From: Subtercola boreus
GTDB lineage: Bacteria; Actinomycetota; Actinomycetes; Actinomycetales; Microbacteriaceae
Assembly: GCF_003399645.1 (NCBI RefSeq)
Contig: NZ_NBXD01000014.1
Coordinates: 186,001 to 250,000 of the forward strand
Direction of reading: 5' to 3'
DNA length: 64,000 bases
Part shown: piece after piece, positions 45,958-56,275 of the stretch
Layout of the letters: every line of letters starts with the position of its first letter
Position numbering within the stretch: position 1 is the first letter of the stretch
Notes under the pieces: model-generated
Seen by the model: only the letters and a program-made list of their open reading frames with translations
What the model was told of the DNA's origin: nothing
The model's database searches: none
Program-made: the position numbers and the translations under genes

Positions 45958-47598
45958 ATGAACGACGAGACCAATGCCGACGTGGACAAAGACAGTGTCA
46001 AAAGCGGTCTAAACGAAGACAATGTCGATGTCAATGCCGACGAAGAAAAAGGCACTGACCGCGGCGAGAGCTCTGTCTCTGTCAATGACAGTCGCACTGC
46101 AGGTGACAGTCGCACTGCCGATGACAGTCGCACTGCCGGTGACAGTCGCGCTGCCGGTGACAGTCGCGCTGCCGGTGACAGTCGCGCTGCCGATGACAGT
46201 CGCACTGACAGTGACATGAATGCCGACCAGGCAGGTGCGCCGGGGCGGGTAGACCGGCGGGCGGTGCTGAGGCTGGCCGCATGGTCTGTCCCGGTGATCG
46301 CGGCGGGGATGGCGGGTTCCGCGGCGACGCTTGGTGCTACCGCCGCGGCAGGTACTGCGGCCAGAACTGCGTCAGGTACTGCGGCCAGAACTGCGGCCGG
46401 AACTGCGGCCAGTACTGCGACCGGAGCGGTGGCCGGAACCGGAACCGCGGCAGAAACCGCGGCCGGCACCGCGGCCGGCGTGGCAGCAAGCGACGCGGGA
46501 ACGGCAGCCGCGGCATCCGGAGTCGTCACCGTCGGGGGATCGGGGTACGGCGCCATTGCCGCGAACGTGACGCGACGGGTCTACGGTCGCAACTTCTCGC
46601 AGTCGAACTACTGTTGGTATCTGCCGTCGACGCTCTCGGTGCGGAATGCGTCGTACACGATCACTCCGCTGACCTCGACCAAGGCGGCGCTGGTGCCGTC
46701 GCAGCCGTCTCCGGGGGCGACCAATCCGCTGGCGCTGTTGCGACTGGGACCGAACAACTCGCGATCCGGCAAGCAGGTGATCGTCGACGGCCTGGTGCTG
46801 ACCGGCACGGTTCAGCCGAAATCCGCGGCGAACCCGCTTCGGCCGGGGCACAACTACCACGGGTTGTCGGTGTACTGGGGGCGCCGGGCGAAGATCCTCA
46901 ACTCGACCTTCATCGCAGCAGAGTGGGGGGACTCGAACTCGCCGCCCGGCGAGACGTTCCAGATCATGGGATATCACGACGTCGACACGTACATCTCCAC
47001 TGTGGAGGTCGACGGTCGCACGGTGGCGGGTACCCGTGTGGGCGGTTCGCCGATCGGTTTCAATGCGTCGACACGTCCGGTTGTCGAGGATTCCTATCTG
47101 CACCATTCGCTCGTGTCGTCACTGACGTTCTCTACGGCCGGGGGTACGCCGAGCATGGCCACGGCGACCAGCAGTCCGACGACGCGTCGTGTTCGTATCG
47201 AGCACAATGCGAACACGAAGATGGCGCCGGGGTTCCGGTTCACGGGCATCAACCACGAGCACGTCGTCGGAGACATCACCCACATCCTGCCGAAGATCTC
47301 GATCGACTGGTGGGAGTGGACGGCCTCGCACATGTTCTTCGGCACCTGGCTCCCGTCGGCACGGGTTCACATCACCATCGATCCCGGCGAGATCAGCGGA
47401 GGCCACCCGAACAACCAGGGGTGCCTCACGGTGGCCATTCCGCGGCTGTTCAATGGAAGAGCGAACGGGCAGCGAGTGACGGATGTGGTGGTTCAGGATG
47501 TCTCGGGTCGACGACTGCGGGCCTACATCATCACCGGGGCCCAGTCCAAGCCGATGCCGGTCGACCGCGAGACGCACTTCATCGTGAATGCGGCGTGA
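45958..47598 (+). CDS. Probable Tat-exported protein with repetitive N-terminus, function unknown
   Basis: A 546-residue protein. Residues 1-98 are very acidic and include seven DSR[TA]A[GD] hexapeptides from an 18-bp repeat. A twin-arginine signal follows unusually late: VDRRAVLRLAAWSVPVIAAG (Arg-Arg at 100-101) and a helix ending in Ala. Then a GTAA-type 12-bp-repeat linker (46351-46482), and a 370-residue domain beginning VVTVGGSGYGAIAAN. Its alternating short strands (for example VIVDGLVLTGTVQP, AKILNSTFIAAEWGD) suggest a right-handed beta-helix, as in carbohydrate-active or phage-tail proteins; this is inference. An internal ATG at 46216 would give a normal Tat n-region but lacks a Shine-Dalgarno. 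The stop overlaps the next gene (GTGA). Confidence 0.7.
   Translation: MNDETNADVDKDSVKSGLNEDNVDVNADEEKGTDRGESSVSVNDSRTAGDSRTADDSRTAGDSRAAGDSRAAGDSRAADDSRTDSDMNADQAGAPGRVDRRAVLRLAAWSVPVIAAGMAGSAATLGATAAAGTAARTASGTAARTAAGTAASTATGAVAGTGTAAETAAGTAAGVAASDAGTAAAASGVVTVGGSGYGAIAANVTRRVYGRNFSQSNYCWYLPSTLSVRNASYTITPLTSTKAALVPSQPSPGATNPLALLRLGPNNSRSGKQVIVDGLVLTGTVQPKSAANPLRPGHNYHGLSVYWGRRAKILNSTFIAAEWGDSNSPPGETFQIMGYHDVDTYISTVEVDGRTVAGTRVGGSPIGFNASTRPVVEDSYLHHSLVSSLTFSTAGGTPSMATATSSPTTRRVRIEHNANTKMAPGFRFTGINHEHVVGDITHILPKISIDWWEWTASHMFFGTWLPSARVHITIDPGEISGGHPNNQGCLTVAIPRLFNGRANGQRVTDVVVQDVSGRRLRAYIITGAQSKPMPVDRETHFIVNAA
46087..46206 (+). repeat. 18-bp coding repeat (DSRTAG/DSRAAG type)
   Basis: Six full units, for example GACAGTCGCACTGCCGGT and GACAGTCGCGCTGCCGGT, plus a 12-bp partial unit run without interruption from 46087 to 46206. 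Differences between units are mostly single G/A or T/A changes. The unit preserves reading frame. Confidence 0.93.
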
Positions 47599-48066: not shown

Positions 48067-48483
48067 GTGACCAACACGACTCCTGACATCACAACCTTCA
48101 GCTCCGCGCAGAGCACGCACCAGACGCAGCAGCCGTTGCATGAGCTGATGAGCCCCGAGGTCAACGTTCAGCGCATCATGCGCACGGGCACGATCTGGTT
48201 CGCCGCCGCCGTCGGCGCCGTGGCCATCGTCGCCGGCATCCTGCTCTCGTCGGGTTGGCGTCCGGCCGTGCTCTCCGCCGGTCTGGCCGTGGCGTTCTGG
48301 GTGGGGGCGGGCTTCGTTGCGATCAGCGTCGGGCTGATCGGATGGTCGGGGTGCCCCATTCTCGAAGTCGACGTGCCCACGGCCTCCCGCAACAAGTCAC
48401 TCACCATGCAGCTCGGCACCATGATGTTCATCGTCGGCGGCGCCGTCACGCTGATCTCTGTGCTGCTCGGCCCGGCGGTCTAG
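48067..48483 (+). CDS. Membrane protein of unknown function
   Basis: A 138-residue protein with a polar N-terminus (about 38 residues, Thr/Gln/His-rich) and three hydrophobic helices at about residues 42-62, 66-88 and 115-136. GTG 48067 follows GAAAGGA by 6 nt. No family recognised. It is separated from the preceding small gene by 136 nt and its stop overlaps, tail to tail, the stop of the 3-hydroxyacyl-CoA dehydrogenase gene. Confidence 0.65.
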   Translation: MTNTTPDITTFSSAQSTHQTQQPLHELMSPEVNVQRIMRTGTIWFAAAVGAVAIVAGILLSSGWRPAVLSAGLAVAFWVGAGFVAISVGLIGWSGCPILEVDVPTASRNKSLTMQLGTMMFIVGGAVTLISVLLGPAV

Positions 48484-49373
48484 TTCTCCGCGGATTGGCT
48501 CCCGGCGGTCTGGGTGCCGTACGTGTAGAAACCCTCGCCCGTCGCGATTCCGAGCTTGCCTTGGTCGATGTACTCCGACTTCAGGAGCGCTGCGAAGGCT
48601 TGTGACTTCGGGTCGGGGCTCGCCGCAGTGATGTTGTAGGCCGTGGTCAGACCCACGACGTCGAAGATCTGGAAGGGGCCTGCGGGCGCACCCGTGGCGA
48701 GCCGCCAGGTCTTGTCGATCGTCTCGGTGTCGGCGATCCCTTCGACGAGCAGACCGGCCGCTGCGCTCAGCAACGGAACCAGCAGCGAGTTCAGAACGTA
48801 GCCCGCCTTCTCCTTCTTCAGCTCGATCGGAACCAGTCCGCTCCCCGTCGCGAACGCGACGACCGAGGCATAGACCTCTGGGTCGGTGTCGATCGTTCCC
48901 ATGACTTCAGCGGTGTTGTTCCGCCAGACCTGGTTCGCGTAATGCAGAGCCAGGAAGCGGTCGGGCCGGCCGGTGAATGCCTTGAGGTCGCTCGGCAGCA
49001 GCGTGGAGGAGTTGGTCGCGAAGATGGTTTTCGCCGGCGCCAGTTCAGCCAGCTTCGTGTAGGTGTCGCGCTTGAGCTCGAGAAGCTCGGGTACCGCCTC
49101 GATCACGAGGTCGGCGTCGGCGACCGCCTCGCCGAGGTCTGCCGTGAGGCGGATGCCGGCTGCTGCCCTGTCGGCGCGCCCGTCTGCGGCGCCCGGCATG
49201 CCGTCGGCCGTGTAGAGACCCGCGAGCTGGACGAATCGTCCGCGGGCCTTCTCCAGAATCGCGTCGTCGAGATCGTAGGAGGTGACGTCGTACCCGAAGT
49301 ACGCGGCCTGGTAGGCGATCTGCGAACCGAGCACGCCGGTTCCGAGAACAGTGACCGTGGTGATGTCTGGCAT
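48480..49373 (-). CDS. 3-hydroxyacyl-CoA dehydrogenase family protein
   Basis: A 297-residue NAD-dependent dehydrogenase. VTVLGTGVLGSQIAYQAAYF and DVTSYDLDD form the NAD site; LVIEAVPELLELKRDTYTKL and TIFATNSSTLLPSDL belong to the N-terminal domain; the C-terminal 3HCDH domain has KEKAGYVLNSLLVPLLSAA. It may oxidise a 3-hydroxyacyl-CoA or a related secondary alcohol. It lies 24 nt downstream of the TetR gene on the same strand, so the two are probably co-transcribed, and both are divergent from the monooxygenase-hydrolase fusion gene. AAGGAAG precedes the ATG. Confidence 0.87.
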   Translation of the reverse strand: MPDITTVTVLGTGVLGSQIAYQAAYFGYDVTSYDLDDAILEKARGRFVQLAGLYTADGMPGAADGRADRAAAGIRLTADLGEAVADADLVIEAVPELLELKRDTYTKLAELAPAKTIFATNSSTLLPSDLKAFTGRPDRFLALHYANQVWRNNTAEVMGTIDTDPEVYASVVAFATGSGLVPIELKKEKAGYVLNSLLVPLLSAAAGLLVEGIADTETIDKTWRLATGAPAGPFQIFDVVGLTTAYNITAASPDPKSQAFAALLKSEYIDQGKLGIATGEGFYTYGTQTAGSQSAEN

Positions 49374-49397
49374 GATTCTTCCTTCTTTTTTAGTCAG

Positions 49398-50036
49398 TCA
49401 GGCGGGGTGCGGGGTCGTGTCAGAGCCGTAGATACTGCGGATCCAGATGCCCGAGAGCACGTCGAGCACCCGGGTCTGCTCGATCGCCGGGGACTCACCG
49501 CTGAAAGCCGCCGACAGAACACGTTCGTTCATGAGGTTCAGGGCGATGGCGAGGTCGCGGGCATCCGTCGATGAGCCGGATGCCGCACCCCGCGCCCGCT
49601 CGGCCACGATGACGTCGGTGGCATATCCGACCCACGTCTGCATCGCCGTCGACCAGAGCGCGTGCACTTCCGGATTGCGCAGTCGGGCACCGATCGCGGC
49701 GGCTGATACCGCCCGATGGGCCGCGAAGACATCGACGAAGACACCGATCGAACGGCGCCACGCCGCTCGGGGCTCTCGATCGAACGTACGGGGCAGGGCA
49801 GCGACCTGGGCCTGCACCTCGGAGATCACGCGATCGAGCAGCGCGAGCAACACCTCGTCTTTCGACGTGTAGTAGAAGTAGAAGCTCGGCCGGGAGATGC
49901 CGGCGCCCAGCGCGAGGTCTTCGATCGAGATCTCGTCGAGGTTCCTCTCGGCGAGCAGACGCTCGGCCGTCGCGAGAATGGCCTCCTGGCGTTCGTCGCC
50001 GGAGAGGCGGGGAGATCGACGTCCGCGTGTGGCCAT
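49398..50036 (-). CDS. ethR: EthR-like TetR-family repressor
   Basis: A 212-residue TetR regulator. The DNA-binding domain is near residues 15-60, with ILATAERLLAERNLDEISIE and AGISRPSFYFYYTSKDEVLL, very like EthR. In mycobacteria EthR represses the divergent flavin monooxygenase gene ethA; here the same arrangement holds with a monooxygenase-hydrolase fusion gene. The intergenic region carries an inverted repeat (50066-50082). TACAGT (minus strand) 6 nt before the ATG suggests a leaderless transcript that continues into the hydroxyacyl-CoA dehydrogenase gene. Confidence 0.8.
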   Translation of the reverse strand: MATRGRRSPRLSGDERQEAILATAERLLAERNLDEISIEDLALGAGISRPSFYFYYTSKDEVLLALLDRVISEVQAQVAALPRTFDREPRAAWRRSIGVFVDVFAAHRAVSAAAIGARLRNPEVHALWSTAMQTWVGYATDVIVAERARGAASGSSTDARDLAIALNLMNERVLSAAFSGESPAIEQTRVLDVLSGIWIRSIYGSDTTPHPA

Positions 50037-50042
50037 GCCTTC

Positions 50043-50048
50043 ACTGTA
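50043..50048 (-). promoter_or_regulatory. Putative -10 for leaderless ethR-like gene
   Basis: On the minus strand TACAGT ends 6 nt before the ATG at 50036. It lies next to the operator palindrome, which would allow autorepression. Confidence 0.4.
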
Positions 50049-50065
50049 ACCACGAACCGGGTTGT

Positions 50066-50082
50066 ATCAACAGTGCGTTGAT
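50066..50082. promoter_or_regulatory. EthR-like operator
   Basis: ATCAAC (50066-50071) and GTTGAT (50077-50082) are perfect inverted arms around AGTGC. TCGACACTGTG just downstream adds EthR-site-like words. The right arm overlaps the putative -35 of the monooxygenase gene, a position suited to repression. Confidence 0.55.
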
Positions 50083-50105
50083 TAAATCGACACTGTGTCT
50101 ATAGT
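50078..50105 (+). promoter_or_regulatory. Promoter of the monooxygenase-hydrolase gene
   Basis: TTGATT (50078-50083) and TATAGT (50100-50105) are separated by 16 bp. The -10 ends 6 nt before ATG 50112, so the mRNA is probably leaderless. The -35 overlaps the EthR-like operator. Confidence 0.55.
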
Positions 50106-50111
50106 GGAGGC

Positions 50112-52517
50112 ATGACAGAGCACGTCGATGTGTTGATCGTAGGAGCCGGCCTGAGCGGAATCGGGGCCGCCAGCCATCTGAAACGCCGGATGCCCGGCAC
50201 CACCTTCGCGATCCTCGAGTCGCGGAGCGCCGTGGGCGGCACGTGGGACCTGTTCAGGTACCCCGGAATCCGCTCCGACTCCGATATGTACACGCTCGGC
50301 TACTCGTTCCGCCCGTGGACCGACGCGAAGGCGATCGCCGACGGTGACTCCATTCGCGAGTACATCACCGCGACCATCCACGACGAGGGCCTTCGCCCCA
50401 ACATCCGACTCAACACGCGCGTGCTGAGTGCCGCGTTCTCGAGCGAGACCGCCCTCTGGACGGTCACCGCCGTGCGAACCTCCGCGGCCGAGTACGTACA
50501 GGGCGACAGTGGCGGCGGCGACGAAGAGACCCTGACCTTCACCTGTTCGTTCCTCTCGGTGTGCTCGGGGTACTACCGCTACGACGAGGGGTACACCCCC
50601 GCGCTCCCGGGAGCCGATACCTTCGAGGGCCGGATCGTGCATCCGCAGCACTGGCCCACCGACCTCGACCACGCCGACAAGCGCGTCGTGGTGATCGGCA
50701 GCGGCGCGACCGCCGTCACCCTCGTTCCGTCGCTCGCGAAGACGGCGGCCCAGGTCACGATGCTGCAGCGCTCGCCCACCTACATCGCCGCCGTGCCGTC
50801 GAAGGATCGCACAGCCGACCGATTGCGCCGCCGGCTGCCCGCGCAGCTCGCCTACAACGCCGTGCGCGCGAAGAACATCGGCTATTCGATGTTCACCTAC
50901 CAGCTCAGCCGCCGTCGGCCCGAGACGATGAAGAAGCTGTTGCGAACATCCGCAGTCGCCAAGCTGCCGGCCGGCTTCGATGTCGACACCCATCTCGCGC
51001 CCTCCTACAACCCCTGGGACCAGCGTCTCTGCGCCATTCCCGACGGCGATCTCTACCGCGCCATCAGTCGCGGGAATGCCGACATGGTGACCGATGGCAT
51101 CGCCGAGATCACGGCCACCGGCATCCGGCTCGACTCGGGCAAGACGCTCGATGCCGACATCATCGTGACAGCGACGGGCCTGAACCTGCTGGTCATCGGT
51201 GGAATGACGCTGAGCGTCGACGGACGGACGATCGATGTGTCGAAGAAACTCAGCTACAAGGGCATGATGCTCGCCGGGGTACCGAATTTCTCGCTGACGA
51301 TCGGCTACACGAACGCTTCGTGGACGCTGAAGGCCGATCTGGTGGCCGAGTATGTGGTGCGACTGCTGAAGCACATGCACAGGCACGGCTACCAGACGGT
51401 GACTCCGGATGCCCCGGCCTCCGTTCTGCGCGGCACCCTCGTTCCGCTCATCGACCTGCAGGCCGGGTACGTGCTGCGGAACGCCGCGAGCCTGCCGCGG
51501 CAGGGGGAGAAGTCGCCCTGGCGGCTGCACCAGAACTACCTGCGTGACTTCCGGCTGTTCCGCCTGGGGCGGATCTCCGACGGCGTGCGGTTCGGGCGGC
51601 GGAGAACCTCGACACCGGAGAAGGCACGTCCGCTCGAATTGCCCGGCACTGCGTTCGTCAAGGTCGGCGGGGTACGACTGCGGTATCGCACCACCGGCAG
51701 CGGCGACCCCGTTCTGCTGTTGCACGGCATCGGCCAGAGCCTCGAAGACTGGAGTGAGCAGCACGACCGCCTCTCTGAGAACCACACCGTCTACAGCCTC
51801 GACCTCCCGGGTTTCGCCTACTCCGAGCGTCTGACGGGTACCGCAACGCTCGAGGGGCTGGCGAGCATCCTGCCCGCCTTCCTCGACGCGGTCGGCCTGA
51901 CGGAGCCGCTCCCGGTGATCGGCAACTCCCTGGGCGGCGCCGTGGCGATGACGTTCGCGGTCGCGCACCCCGAGCGGGTCTCGTCGCTCGTGCTCGCCGA
52001 CAGTGCGGGCTTCGGCGCGGAGGTCACCCTCGTGCTGCGGCTGCTCGCGATCAAGCCGCTCGGTGCCCTGTTGATGCGGCCGAACCCCGCGAACTCGAAG
52101 CGCACCGTCGAGTCGGTCTTCTACGACAAAACCCTGGCGACGGATGCCCGCATCCGGCACTCCTTCGCTCTGGCCCGGCGGCGGGCGCACGCGCAGACGA
52201 CGCTCGATGTCGCACACGACCTCGGCACCCTTCGCGGAGTGCGCCCGGAATGGCGCACACGGTTGCTCGCCCGGGTGTCGAGACTCGACATCCCCGTGCT
52301 CGTGCTGTGGGGCGACCATGACCACGTTCTGCCGTTCAGCCAGCACAGCGCGGCGACCAAGGCCCTGCCCCACGCGTCTGCGCATGTCTTCGAGCGCACA
52401 GGCCACATGCCGCAGATCGAACGACCCGACGAGTTCCGCGATGTCGTGGAACAGTTTCTCGAGAAGGCCGCGGGAAGTGCGGGCGAATCTCATCGGAGCT
52501 GTCCCGCGTTTGGGTAG
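50112..52517 (+). CDS. Flavin monooxygenase (Baeyer-Villiger type) fused to alpha/beta hydrolase
   Basis: An 801-residue two-domain enzyme in one frame. Residues 1 to about 490 are an EthA-like monooxygenase: VDVLIVGAGLSGIGAASHL (FAD), FEGRIVHPQHWP at 171-182 (Baeyer-Villiger fingerprint FxGxxxHxxxWP) and VVVIGSGATAVTLVPSLA (NADPH). Residues about 515-790 are an alpha/beta hydrolase: LLLHGIGQSLEDW (oxyanion hole), Ser606 in VIGNSLGGA, Asp735 in WGDHDHVLP and His765 in ERTGHMPQIE. The monooxygenase would turn a ketone into an ester or lactone that the hydrolase cleaves at once. Divergent from an EthR-like repressor. The frame is continuous with no stop or shift between the domains. Confidence 0.88.
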   Translation: MTEHVDVLIVGAGLSGIGAASHLKRRMPGTTFAILESRSAVGGTWDLFRYPGIRSDSDMYTLGYSFRPWTDAKAIADGDSIREYITATIHDEGLRPNIRLNTRVLSAAFSSETALWTVTAVRTSAAEYVQGDSGGGDEETLTFTCSFLSVCSGYYRYDEGYTPALPGADTFEGRIVHPQHWPTDLDHADKRVVVIGSGATAVTLVPSLAKTAAQVTMLQRSPTYIAAVPSKDRTADRLRRRLPAQLAYNAVRAKNIGYSMFTYQLSRRRPETMKKLLRTSAVAKLPAGFDVDTHLAPSYNPWDQRLCAIPDGDLYRAISRGNADMVTDGIAEITATGIRLDSGKTLDADIIVTATGLNLLVIGGMTLSVDGRTIDVSKKLSYKGMMLAGVPNFSLTIGYTNASWTLKADLVAEYVVRLLKHMHRHGYQTVTPDAPASVLRGTLVPLIDLQAGYVLRNAASLPRQGEKSPWRLHQNYLRDFRLFRLGRISDGVRFGRRRTSTPEKARPLELPGTAFVKVGGVRLRYRTTGSGDPVLLLHGIGQSLEDWSEQHDRLSENHTVYSLDLPGFAYSERLTGTATLEGLASILPAFLDAVGLTEPLPVIGNSLGGAVAMTFAVAHPERVSSLVLADSAGFGAEVTLVLRLLAIKPLGALLMRPNPANSKRTVESVFYDKTLATDARIRHSFALARRRAHAQTTLDVAHDLGTLRGVRPEWRTRLLARVSRLDIPVLVLWGDHDHVLPFSQHSAATKALPHASAHVFERTGHMPQIERPDEFRDVVEQFLEKAAGSAGESHRSCPAFG

Positions 52518-52844: not shown

Positions 52845-55097
52845 TCAGTTGGCGATCGGTGCACGATCGACGAACAACGGGTCGGTCGGCGCCGTGGTGA
52901 ACGCGCCAGCGATGACCAGGCCCCCGCGGCTGAGGGTCGCCACGACGAGCGGGTCGTGCGGGCCGCCCCATTCACTGTGTGGAAGCGGACGGTCTCGGGT
53001 GGGGAGGAACGCGGTGGCGCTGAAGAGCGCGGGTTCGCGTGCCGTGCCGGTGCCGGCCGGTGCCGTGGTGCCGGTGAGCGGTTTGGTGGCGGTCAGTGGT
53101 TTGGTGGCGGACGGTGCCGTAGTGCCGGTCAGCGGTGTGGTGACAGTCAGCGGTGTGGTGGTGCCGTTGATACTCAGGTCCACCGCGTCTGAGGGCAGGG
53201 CTCCGACCGCGGTACCGGTGACGGTGATCCCGAGTCCGCCGTCGACCTCTGTGGCTGTGGCTCGGAGTTGGAGCGTGACCGCTTCGGTCTGGGTGAGCAC
53301 GGCCGCGGGCATCCGTGTGTTCCGCTCATTCTCAAGCGGGGGTGTTCTGCCCGGGGGCACGCGGCGCCCGGCCCCGGACTCGTAAGCGTGTGCGTAGGCG
53401 AGCAGAGCACTGTCGTCGTAGGCCCGGCCGGCGAAGGTGAGGCCCACGGGCATCCCGGTGTCGGCCATCACCCCCATCATCACCGTGACCGTCGGAACAC
53501 CGAGGTGCCGCAGCACGAGGTTGCCGTTCGCGACCCACGTGCCGTTCCGCCAGGCGAGGGCAGCCGAATCGGGGTTCACGTCGGCATCGGCCGGGCCCAC
53601 GTCGGCGACGGCAGGGAAGACGAGGGCATCGATGCCGAGTTCGTCGAGCCAGTCTTCGAGGTCGACTCGCCGTGTGCGTTCGAGCCCGCGGAGGCCCTCT
53701 TCGAGGAAGGGGATGTTTTCGAGCGGAGTGATTCCGTCGCGGCGGGCCCGGGTGACGTAGTCGGCGAGGTCGACGTCCGTATTGTCGACGTCGGTGTTGT
53801 CGGCGTCAGTATTGTCGGCGTCAGTGTTATCGACGTGAGCCCGGGCTGAGCTGTGACCGGGGCTGTGCATCCCGTACCGGTCTGACAGGGCACCCGTTGG
53901 CGCAGGAAAGATCAGAGCCCCGTCGACGTCGGCCAGCGCGTGGAGCTCCGGGTCTCCGTTCGCGGCGAGGAAGTCGTGCCAGCCGAGCATCGACAGCTGC
54001 CACAGCTCGCTTTCGAGGAACTGCGGAGGCACGAATCCGCGCGTCGCCAGCGTCGGCGCACCCGGCCGGTCGCCCTCGTAGTTCGAGACCATCGGCAGCC
54101 CGACCTCGACCACCTCGGCACCCAGCGCTTCGAGGGCAGACCGGGCCTCGACCCAGAGCTCGATGACGGAGGCCCTGGTCTCGATCGGCGAGAACACGGC
54201 GTCGTCGCGGTCGATGTAGAGCCGCGGGATGCCCAGCCTCCGCCCGCGCAGGGTGTCGGCGGGGGCTGCCGTTCCGAGCTGCCGGTACGATTCCGGGCGC
54301 ACCGTCGACGCGGGCGGGATCGTGACGAAGGGCTGCTGGCGCCAGAAGTCGCCGCGGGAGTCGGGATCGTCGGCCACGATCACATCGAGCAGGATGAGCA
54401 GATCATCCACCGACCGGGTGTGGGGCACGACCACGTCCATCGTCGGCACGAGCGGCCAGTTGCCGCGCACGGAGATGACGCCGCGGGAGGGCGTGTACGC
54501 GACCAGGCCGTTGTTCGACGCCGGTGCCCGGCCCGACGACCAGGTCTCTTCGCCGAGGCCGAACGCGGCGAAACTCGCGGTCGTGGCGGTGCCCGATCCG
54601 TTCGAGGAACCCGAGGCGTAGGCGGCGGTGAGGTAGCCGGGGTTGTACGGGCTCTCGGCGCGGCCGTAGAGACCCCGCTGCATGCCGCCGTTCGCCATCG
54701 GCGGCATGTTCGTGAGGCCGATCAACACGGCCCCGGCCGCCCGCAGGCGTGCGATCGTGAACGCGTCATCGGTGGCGACCAGGTCGCGGAACGCGGGCGA
54801 ACCGGCTGCCACGGTGAGTCCGCGCACGCAGAAACTGTCTTTGGCCGTGTACGGGATGCCGTCGAGCAGTCCCCGCACCTCACCGCGCCGGCGGCGCTCG
54901 TCGGCGGCGCGGGCTTCGTCGAACGCGTCGGGGTTCAGAACGACGAGGGAGTTCAGCGTGATACCGCTGTGGTCGAAGTGCGCGATGCGGTCGAGGTAGC
55001 GGGCGACCAGGTCGACGCTGGTCACCGCGCCGCCCGCGAGGGCTGCGACGAGGTCGGCGATGCTCGTCTCGACGACGGTGAAGGCGCGCTCCGTCAT
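52845..55097 (-). CDS. Amidase signature family hydrolase with repeat insertions
   Basis: A 750-residue amidase, long for the family (about 480-550). The catalytic Lys is in DGIPYTAKDSF; the Ser cluster is YASGSSNGSGTATTASFAA followed by GLGEETWSSGRAPASNN, a variant of the usual GGSSGGS...DTGGSIR pattern. Ser-cisSer-Lys geometry seems conserved. Two repeat regions enlarge it: DNTDA/DNTDV units (53769-53828) and a C-terminal Thr/Pro domain with TPLTGT-type hexapeptides (53055-53162) near a beta-rich tail. It starts in the stop of the agmatine-deiminase-like gene (ATGA), so the two are coupled. It would hydrolyse an amide; substrate unknown. Confidence 0.82.
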   Translation of the reverse strand: MTERAFTVVETSIADLVAALAGGAVTSVDLVARYLDRIAHFDHSGITLNSLVVLNPDAFDEARAADERRRRGEVRGLLDGIPYTAKDSFCVRGLTVAAGSPAFRDLVATDDAFTIARLRAAGAVLIGLTNMPPMANGGMQRGLYGRAESPYNPGYLTAAYASGSSNGSGTATTASFAAFGLGEETWSSGRAPASNNGLVAYTPSRGVISVRGNWPLVPTMDVVVPHTRSVDDLLILLDVIVADDPDSRGDFWRQQPFVTIPPASTVRPESYRQLGTAAPADTLRGRRLGIPRLYIDRDDAVFSPIETRASVIELWVEARSALEALGAEVVEVGLPMVSNYEGDRPGAPTLATRGFVPPQFLESELWQLSMLGWHDFLAANGDPELHALADVDGALIFPAPTGALSDRYGMHSPGHSSARAHVDNTDADNTDADNTDVDNTDVDLADYVTRARRDGITPLENIPFLEEGLRGLERTRRVDLEDWLDELGIDALVFPAVADVGPADADVNPDSAALAWRNGTWVANGNLVLRHLGVPTVTVMMGVMADTGMPVGLTFAGRAYDDSALLAYAHAYESGAGRRVPPGRTPPLENERNTRMPAAVLTQTEAVTLQLRATATEVDGGLGITVTGTAVGALPSDAVDLSINGTTTPLTVTTPLTGTTAPSATKPLTATKPLTGTTAPAGTGTAREPALFSATAFLPTRDRPLPHSEWGGPHDPLVVATLSRGGLVIAGAFTTAPTDPLFVDRAPIAN
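53055..53162 (-). repeat. 18-bp coding repeat in the amidase C-terminus
   Basis: Six consecutive 18-bp units, for example GGTCAGCGGTGTGGTGAC and GGTCAGTGGTTTGGTGGC on the plus strand, encode PLTGTT/TKPLTA-type hexapeptides on the minus strand. Units are diverged, so the array is older than those at 7287 and 46087. Confidence 0.8.
53769..53828 (-). repeat. 15-bp coding repeat in the amidase (DNTDA/DNTDV x4)
   Basis: Four 15-bp units, from GTCGACGTCCGTATT to GTCGGCGTCAGTGTT on the plus strand, encode a pentapeptide Asp-Asn-Thr-Asp-[Ala/Val] on the minus strand. The segment forms an acidic loop inserted in the amidase core. Confidence 0.88.
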
Positions 55098-56275
55098 GGT
55101 CGGGTCGGCGCGGTGGGCCGGGTCGGCGGGGCCTGCCGGGTCGGCGAGGTGGGCAGGGTCGGTGCGGTGGGAAGGGTCGGCTGGATCTGCCCGGTCGGCA
55201 CCGACGGCTGCTGCTGGGTGATGCAGTGGATGCCGCCGCCCCGCAGGAGAATTTCCCGGGCATCGACGGTCACGACCCGCCGCCCCGGGTACGCCTCGGC
55301 CAGAACCTCGCGGGCCCGGCCGTCTGCCCGGTCGTCGTCGTAGCCGCAGGCGATGATCCCGTCGTTGACGACGAGATGGTTGACGTAGTTCCAGTCGACG
55401 AAGCCGTGGGCGTCTTCGAGTGCAGCGGGTGCCGGCAGGTCGACGATGTGAAAGTCGCGGCCGGCCGCATCCTGCGTCGTCTGAAGGAACGCCCGCAGGT
55501 CGCGGCTCACCGCGGCATCCGGATGATCGGGGTTCTGCTGCTGGTGCAGCAGCACCGTTCCGGGGCTCGGTATGGCCGCGACCATGTCGACGTGGCCACG
55601 GGTTCCGTACTCCTCGTAGTCGCGGGTGAGCCCACGCGGCAGCCAGATCACGTGGGTGGCACCGATCGTGCGCAGGAGCTCGGCCTCGACCCGCTGTTTG
55701 TCGAGGTTCGGGTTGCGGAGCGGATCGAGCTGCACGGTCTCGGTGATGATCACCGTTCCCTCGCCGTCGACGTGGATCGCACCGCCCTCGTTCACGAGCG
55801 TCGACGGGACGGGCTCTGCGCCCGCGAGAGCTCCGACGAGCCGGGCGATCTCGCCGTCGTGGCGGTATTCGGCGTGCGGTCCGCCGCCCCAGGCGTTGAA
55901 TCTCCAGTCGACCGCGCCAAGGGTGGGGGAGCTGGCGGGCGCGCTGCCGCTCGTGCTGTCGGATCCGTCGCTGCCGCCTCCGTCACCACCGTCCTCCCGG
56001 AGTACGAAGGTCGGGCCGAAGTCGCGCATCCAGAAGTCGTCGAGGGGTGCCTCGACCAGCTCGATTCCGGCCGACAGCATCCGCCTGGCCCGCCGCAGCT
56101 CGCTCGGATCGACCACCATCGTGACCGGCTCGAAGTCGGCCACCGCATGGGCGACCGCCGTCCACGCCTCGTAGGCGCCCTGCGGGTCACCGATGCTCAG
56201 CGTTCGGCACGCCCGGGGAAACGCCATCCAGATGCGGTCGTGCGGGGCGGTCTCAGCGGGCATCAGCCAGGTCAT
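55094..56275 (-). CDS. Agmatine deiminase family protein
   Basis: A 393-residue member of the PAD_porph / agmatine deiminase family. The guanidino-group fold is visible: WMRDFGPTFVLRE, EGGAIHVDGEGTVIITE, RGHVDMVAAIPSPGTVL, and the nucleophile cysteine in RGGGIHCITQQQP. It would hydrolyse agmatine to N-carbamoylputrescine and ammonia, or act on another arginine-like substrate. Coupled by ATGA to an amidase, which could act on the carbamoyl product, although the usual partner is a nitrilase-type enzyme. The last about 30 residues are a Thr/Pro repeat tail (LPTAP, LPTSP) from short DNA repeats. TAGGGT before the ATG suggests leaderless transcription. Confidence 0.85.
   Translation of the reverse strand: MTWLMPAETAPHDRIWMAFPRACRTLSIGDPQGAYEAWTAVAHAVADFEPVTMVVDPSELRRARRMLSAGIELVEAPLDDFWMRDFGPTFVLREDGGDGGGSDGSDSTSGSAPASSPTLGAVDWRFNAWGGGPHAEYRHDGEIARLVGALAGAEPVPSTLVNEGGAIHVDGEGTVIITETVQLDPLRNPNLDKQRVEAELLRTIGATHVIWLPRGLTRDYEEYGTRGHVDMVAAIPSPGTVLLHQQQNPDHPDAAVSRDLRAFLQTTQDAAGRDFHIVDLPAPAALEDAHGFVDWNYVNHLVVNDGIIACGYDDDRADGRAREVLAEAYPGRRVVTVDAREILLRGGGIHCITQQQPSVPTGQIQPTLPTAPTLPTSPTRQAPPTRPTAPTRP

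Follow-up and report, generated by a model that had tools for sequence, protein, structure and literature searches.

Within a 64,000-nucleotide stretch of the Subtercola boreus contig NZ_NBXD01000014.1 (hereafter the window, to whose numbering all coordinates refer), three genes are arranged around a single short regulatory region. We describe this locus, which encodes a Baeyer-Villiger monooxygenase (BVMO) fused to an alpha/beta hydrolase, a divergent EthR-like TetR repressor, and a dehydrogenase of the 3-hydroxyacyl-CoA dehydrogenase type (HAD), and we discuss its conservation, its predicted switch, and the pathway it may serve. The fused gene (50112–52517, plus strand) encodes 801 amino acids in one open reading frame (ORF) that matches both the FMO-like and the Abhydrolase_1 families of Pfam. 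On the minus strand lie the repressor gene (49398–50036; 212 amino acids) and behind it, after a gap of 24 bp, the dehydrogenase gene (48480–49373; 297 amino acids). Pfam cut-offs are passed by Abhydrolase_1, FMO-like, TetR_N, EthR_C, and two 3HCDH domains. A preliminary description of this DNA had placed the same three ORFs here, with the dehydrogenase-type gene behind the divergent TetR gene and an intact FxGxxxHxxxWP monooxygenase joined to an alpha/beta hydrolase in a single 801-residue frame; ORF lists, Pfam, and alignments bear this out in all but one residue of the catalytic triad.

The N-terminal half of the fusion protein is, by its motifs and fold, a type I BVMO. This domain (residues 1–498; 50112–51605) is supported by Pfam, where the FMO-like match falls in the first half of the protein, by alignment, and by Foldseek. 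The FxGxxxHxxxWP fingerprint reads FEGRIVHPQHWP at residues 171–182, and the second type I BVMO fingerprint, [A/G]GxWxxxx[F/Y]P[G/M]xxxD, is matched by GGTWDLFRYPGIRSD at residues 42–56. Two Rossmann motifs are present (GAGLSG, 11–16; GSGATA, 196–201), and all 50 listed Foldseek matches to the model of the fusion are BVMOs. When 17 fused homologues, the protein of the window among them, are aligned, the fixed positions of both fingerprints prove invariant, including F171, G173, H177, W181, and P182.

A variable linker follows (residues 499–515; 51606–51656), visible as a gapped region of the alignment with pLDDT below 50 at residues 499–508. The C-terminal half is, on its fold family and Ser-Asp-His triad, a serine hydrolase of the alpha/beta-hydrolase type. 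Its domain spans residues 516–785 (51657–52466) by Pfam and alignments, with Abhydrolase_1 at residues 533–772 (99.3 bits against a cut-off of 25.8). The triad, Ser606 (codon 51927–51929), Asp737 (52320–52322), and His765 (52404–52406), is invariant among the 17 fused proteins and aligns to that of HsaD. Ser606 and His765 had been named before, together with Asp735 as the acid; residue 735 is glycine in one homologue (L027), Asp737 pairs with the WGxxD aspartate of HsaD, and Asp735 is replaced by Asp737 here. AlphaFold predicts two confident domains (mean pLDDT 88.3; pTM 0.66) with low confidence in the linker at residues 499–508. The placement of the domains relative to each other in this model carries no information on channelling, for which the pTM and the linker make it unusable.

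Comparison across genomes indicates that the fusion is genuine and conserved in many bacteria. Homologues with the same domain order occur in 11 of the 12 genomes of the genus, that of the window included, each as one open frame; the single genome without a match (G009) is 86% complete. Among 299 genomes of the family, 43 match at E <= 1e-80, with 13 intact full-length fusions in five genera and a further fusion (G149, locus L026) that has an in-frame stop inside the BVMO part. At L026 the adjoining TetR frame is whole and the dehydrogenase frame is open to the end of the stretch. A set of 396 genomes of the order gives 61 matches. These add a single fusion of the close kind (G462), and a further five are more distant (G588, G310, G398, G411, and G385; L196–L200), their hydrolase domains confirmed by Pfam. 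Six of 80 named loci, the best 80 of 590 from a genome scan and so not a measure of frequency, carry a C-terminal hydrolase: Arthrobacter sp. SO3, C9C5, and PsM3, Pseudarthrobacter oxydans, Rhodococcus phenolicus, and Sphingomonas rubra. A tblastn search of plasmids returned 62 records, and in three of them a single place reaches 80% coverage or more. A plasmid of Streptomyces sp. NBC_01717 encodes one 780-amino-acid fusion frame (L073, 5956–8298), adjoined by HAD, acyl-CoA ligase, and TetR genes; the distributed gene table gives the hydrolase half of this frame only. Seven BVMO frames from the set of 80, as well as L152 and L176, have long N-terminal extensions; a scan of these extensions revealed no fused hydrolase, and they look like over-long ORFs. 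That sequencing or assembly joined two genes is negligibly probable: split relatives do exist, but the same single frame recurs throughout the genus, in Arthrobacter and Pseudarthrobacter, and in other genera, and we reject an artefact.

The split relatives, in which BVMO and hydrolase are adjacent genes, point to how the fusion arose. At 10 of the 13 split loci examined, several of which are close relatives, the BVMO stop and a candidate hydrolase start overlap by 4 nt; two others have an 8-nt overlap, and for L184 the script gave no candidate. Translationally coupled, overlapping genes therefore probably came first and the fusion later. Both phylogenies used here are quick trees, with long branches in that of the hydrolase (L080, L074, and paralogues). 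In the hydrolase tree the 18 fused domains of the close group fall together (SH-aLRT 98), with the separate hydrolase of L158 as their sister (96). The corresponding clade of the BVMO tree comprises 18 fused rows together with the unfused L156 and L157 (support 99), and has L158, L159–L161, and L181 as its sister (86; joined at 95). To account for C-terminal fusion, the hydrolase tree requires five label changes, each a gain or a loss, and strong branches force four or more of these; the BVMO tree needs eight changes among fused, reverse, and separate states. The trees require several separate fusions. L196–L200 and L116 have hydrolases far from that of the window, and in S. rubra and L196–L200 the fused hydrolase is a distant one. 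Relatives of the hydrolase domain (54–55%) in L210 and L211 (genus g34) have no BVMO match within about 7 kb, and so the hydrolase occurs alone too.

The dehydrogenase belongs by sequence to a group that handles free ketones and alcohols. Its two best solved relatives are 4dyd, a diketoreductase (416.7 bits; 67% identity), and 6kq9 (282.9 bits), and the next entry scores 134.8; identity to the long-chain secondary alcohol dehydrogenase of Micrococcus luteus is 47–49%. The structural model is poor (pLDDT 51.3), and Foldseek titles and identities alone were used, in an order that agrees with the sequence search. On this evidence the enzyme is nearer the diketoreductase and secondary alcohol dehydrogenase group than CoA-dependent 3-hydroxyacyl-CoA dehydrogenases. 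A passage of PMC4114983 presents diketoreductase as a reductase of varied ketones. In an excerpt of PMC7101164, a Nocardia enzyme annotated as 3-hydroxybutyryl-CoA dehydrogenase, 47% identical to an M. luteus enzyme, has secondary alcohol dehydrogenase activity, and in a knockout of that homologue oleic acid goes to 10-hydroxystearic acid only. Because the nearest relatives use free ketones or secondary alcohols, "alcohol to ketone" seems a better reading than the family name suggested.

The regulator is EthR-like. The TetR protein scores 140.5 bits to EthR_C (Pfam cut-off 27), and its best solved relative is EthR itself (5eyr; 210.2 bits). Two palindromes are predicted as operators in the 75 bp between the repressor and fusion genes (50037–50111). 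Palindrome 1, TCAACAGTGCGTTGA (50067–50081), shares bases with the -35-like box of each divergent gene; it is the inverted repeat that had been placed over the fusion gene's -35 box, and it indeed overlaps TTGATT. Palindrome 2, TCGACACTGTGTCTA (50087–50101), is absent from the preliminary description; it lies 20 bp from palindrome 1 and takes in the spacer of the fusion gene's promoter-like boxes as well as the first part of its -10-like box. The core promoter-like boxes of the fusion gene are TTGATT (50078–50083) and, after 16 bp, TATAGT (50100–50105), 6 nt before the ATG; those of the TetR gene, on the minus strand, are TTGATA (50070–50065) and, after 16 bp, TACAGT (50048–50043), again 6 nt before the ATG. 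The boxes are consensus matches and not mapped promoters, and the -35-like box of the TetR gene was read by eye.

The double site is conserved. A pair of 15-bp palindromes, TCRACANNNTGTYGA, with at most two mismatches each, occurs in all 22 intergenic regions of the close group (the window and the unfused relatives L028 and L029 included), spaced 20 bp in 21 of them and 19 bp in one; shuffled upstream regions gave such a pair in 0 of 4400. The two sites are the only ones in the window with at most one mismatch. With up to two mismatches allowed there are 19 (6.92 expected), mostly inside genes, and only the two one-mismatch sites were used. Among other BVMO loci, deduplicated, 26 have an EthR-like TetR gene in divergent orientation, and 25 of these show the pair, the sole miss having a single perfect palindrome; of the 107 loci without such a gene, 2 show it. 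Mycolicibacterium sp. P1-5 (L150, whose regulator scores 229.9 bits to EthR) and Nannocystis (L149) are among the carriers of the pair. This double-palindrome pattern, a new result here, would cover both divergent core promoters in the window, and its spacing of two helical turns would fit a pair of repressor dimers on the same face of the DNA. A TANNNT box stands 6–7 nt before the start codon of both divergent genes in 22 of 22 regions; because these boxes lie so near both start codons, their position suggests that both transcripts are leaderless. The published mycobacterial EthR operator reportedly has two such elements at the same spacing.

Related BVMO genes keep similar company. We surveyed 60 stretches around family and order matches, hand-chosen rather than random and with related genomes recurring, of which 57 contain the BVMO. 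Within 2.5 kb of it are found TetR genes at 27 loci, HY hydrolases at 26 (9 fused), HAD at 16, SDR at 14, HSL at 5, and acyl-CoA ligase at 3; the 506.8 kb further out hold one HAD, one SDR, two HSL, and one ligase, with no HY or TetR. The gene orders observed are HAD-TetR / BVMO-HY, TetR / BVMO-HY, BVMO-SDR-HY, BVMO-HY-SDR, and TetR / BVMO-HAD-HSL. The BVMO-HAD-HSL rows are L159–L161, L180, and L181, where two HSL and one HAD were checked by Pfam; Micromonospora SDRs were also among the checked neighbors. The set thus recurs near related BVMOs with exchanged members: its dehydrogenase is of either HAD or SDR type, and its hydrolase of either ABH or HSL type. Three chemistries kept with exchanged families are what a fixed pathway predicts.

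We propose that the locus is a self-repressed catabolic module that cuts a carbon chain beside a secondary alcohol or ketone, a reading to which we give a probability of roughly 0.68. The dehydrogenase would oxidize a secondary alcohol to a ketone, as its homology and gene neighborhood indicate; the BVMO domain, complete in motifs and fold, would insert oxygen to turn the ketone into an ester; and the hydrolase domain (Ser606-Asp737-His765) would split the ester into an acid and an alcohol. For this last step we rely on the intact triad and on the fact that different hydrolases are repeatedly paired with or fused to BVMOs of this family. A pair of EthR-like dimers may bind the two 15-bp palindromes and repress the fusion gene, the repressor's own gene, and the dehydrogenase gene, with the ketone or the ester as the likely inducer. 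The fusion, probably derived from coupled overlapping genes, would fix equal (1:1) amounts and closeness of the two enzymes; obligatory channelling is not claimed. An alcohol–ketone–ester–acid pathway under one switch had been put forward in the preliminary description, and it is well supported by comparison: by the fusion, the kin of the dehydrogenase, the recurring set, and the double site. Its further suggestion, that the ester passes directly between the fused domains, finds no support, given a pTM of 0.66, the missing hydrolase of L156 and L157, and a separate hydrolase gene in many relatives.

Several observations weigh against the module as proposed. L156 (G015) and L157 (G200), although inside the fused clade and with TetR, dehydrogenase, and BVMO kept, lack a hydrolase of the window type within about 7 kb in both directions; the fused hydrolase, it seems, can be lost. 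Among solved structures the hydrolase domain is closest to C-C hydrolases, HsaD for one (105.7 bits), and the dehydrogenase passes the NCBIfam model NF006143, named 3-hydroxyacyl-CoA dehydrogenase, at 395.8 bits (cut-off 312). A simple search found a -35-like box at 15–18 bp in only 13 of the 22 relatives. None of the six queried partners lies within 2.5 kb at 15 of the 57 BVMO loci, among them the L196 fusion, whose hydrolase falls below the HY threshold. The fused genes L079, L080, L116, L203, and L204 have neither an EthR-like gene nor a HAD adjoining at the thresholds used, and at L203 and L204 an SDR adjoins; the full gene set is evidently not universal among fusions. A search for oleate hydratase in the organism's own genome gave no match; such an enzyme is rejected as a feeder of the module, and an endogenous 10-hydroxy fatty acid route is for this reason unlikely.

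These points lend some weight to other readings. The dehydrogenase may act on 3-hydroxyacyl-CoA, downstream of the BVMO, in the beta-oxidation of the released acid. The 3HCDH and NF006143 names fit this, as does the acyl-CoA-ligase-like gene near the BVMO in L159–L161 and L073, but the best solved relatives and the Nocardia homologue described in the PMC7101164 excerpt act on free ketones or alcohols, and an SDR takes the place of the HAD at other BVMO loci, with both together at 0 of 57; we regard beta-oxidation as unlikely. A role of the hydrolase on another bond, for instance a C-C bond or the ester bond of a compound that precedes the ketone, with shared regulation as the sole meaning of the fusion, would suit the kinship to meta-cleavage C-C hydrolases and the loss in L156 and L157. 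We hold it quite unlikely, since several ABH lineages and the HSL-type PF07859 family are found paired with, or fused to, this one BVMO family, with either partner first, and ester hydrolysis is most plausibly the activity common to them.

The BVMO could also oxidize toxic ketones or sulfur compounds, as a detoxifying enzyme with EthA-like promiscuity and no fixed substrate chain. EthR-like regulation is compatible with this, and EthA is known, from a passage of PMC4482099, for prodrug activation; the recurrence of dedicated dehydrogenase and hydrolase partners speaks against it and makes it improbable. The chain-cutting module thus stays our preferred reading.

Known systems place this module in context. 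The EthA/EthR pair of mycobacteria shares a BVMO and a divergent EthR-type TetR regulator, and the 75 bp between the genes here equal the distance that a passage of PMC3511530 gives for EthR. The window differs in its fused hydrolase and in the dehydrogenase behind the TetR gene; the sequence comparison with this pair covers the regulator. An excerpt of PMC4482099 describes the EthR motif as larger, more complex, and not classically palindromic, in contrast to the two palindromes 20 bp apart found here. The mymA operon of M. tuberculosis likewise sets a BVMO, MymA, and further genes under one regulator, VirS, in a passage of PMC13234193. Its genes are separate and its regulator is another one, and the comparison is one of gene content and control. 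The further genes of the operon include a lipase and an SDR.

Two further systems can be compared. WP_010884002.1 of Deinococcus radiodurans (pMP1) joins a serine hydrolase and a related BVMO (51%) in one chain; there the hydrolase stands in front of the BVMO and belongs to PF07859, and the annotated stretch has no TetR gene. An engineered cascade, which in excerpts of PMC4911592, PMC6835665, and PMC8403116 combines the M. luteus secondary alcohol dehydrogenase, a BVMO of Pseudomonas putida KT2440, and ester hydrolysis, takes the three steps proposed here, and the window dehydrogenase is 47–49% identical to an M. luteus long-chain secondary alcohol dehydrogenase of known structure; the window set differs in being natural and co-regulated, with BVMO and hydrolase in one chain and no oleate hydratase found in the genome. 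In searches of an open-access library we recognized no paper on a natural BVMO-hydrolase fusion; the name "arylesterase monooxygenase" occurs for fungi in a passage of PMC7379330.

Elsewhere in the window, a 546-amino-acid ORF (45958–47598) shows, by eye, an acidic Ser/Asp/Arg repeat head and a twin-arginine-like stretch, with no Pfam match. On the minus strand at 52845–56275, amidase (PF01425) and peptidyl-arginine deiminase-family genes overlap by 4 nt; they seem to have no connection with the module.

From a long-chain ketone, a BVMO produces a long-chain ester. EthR has been crystallized with hexadecyl octanoate, a long-chain ester, according to an excerpt of PMC5895659, and TetR regulators less than 200 bp from a divergent gene mostly repress that gene, as a passage of PMC3511530 states. 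The crystal ester and the BVMO chemistry together suggest that the inducer may be an ester or the ketone it comes from, and that the fused hydrolase would clear this inducer away. As a tentative and rather doubtful extension, EthR-type regulators from Mycolicibacterium to Arthrobacter and the myxobacterium Nannocystis might share an operator code of two 15-bp palindromes 20 bp apart, their natural job being to sense the Baeyer-Villiger ketone or ester; the fused hydrolase would then destroy the inducing ester, and a single protein would generate as well as clear the signal, forming a self-resetting switch. The physiological role of EthR is described as unknown in an excerpt of PMC4482099.

The locus would be a natural, co-regulated counterpart of a cascade built by hand, with BVMO and probable ester-splitting activity in one chain. 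It offers a ready test object for whether joining the two enzymes helps, and the recurrence of such fusions, with different hydrolases but a single BVMO family, is a clue to that family's product. The operator rule allows EthR-type targets to be predicted across phyla and may provide a route to the natural ligand of EthR-type repressors. If the tentative reading of EthR-type regulators as sensors of a Baeyer-Villiger ketone or ester proves true, it would give the EthA/EthR pair a natural role.

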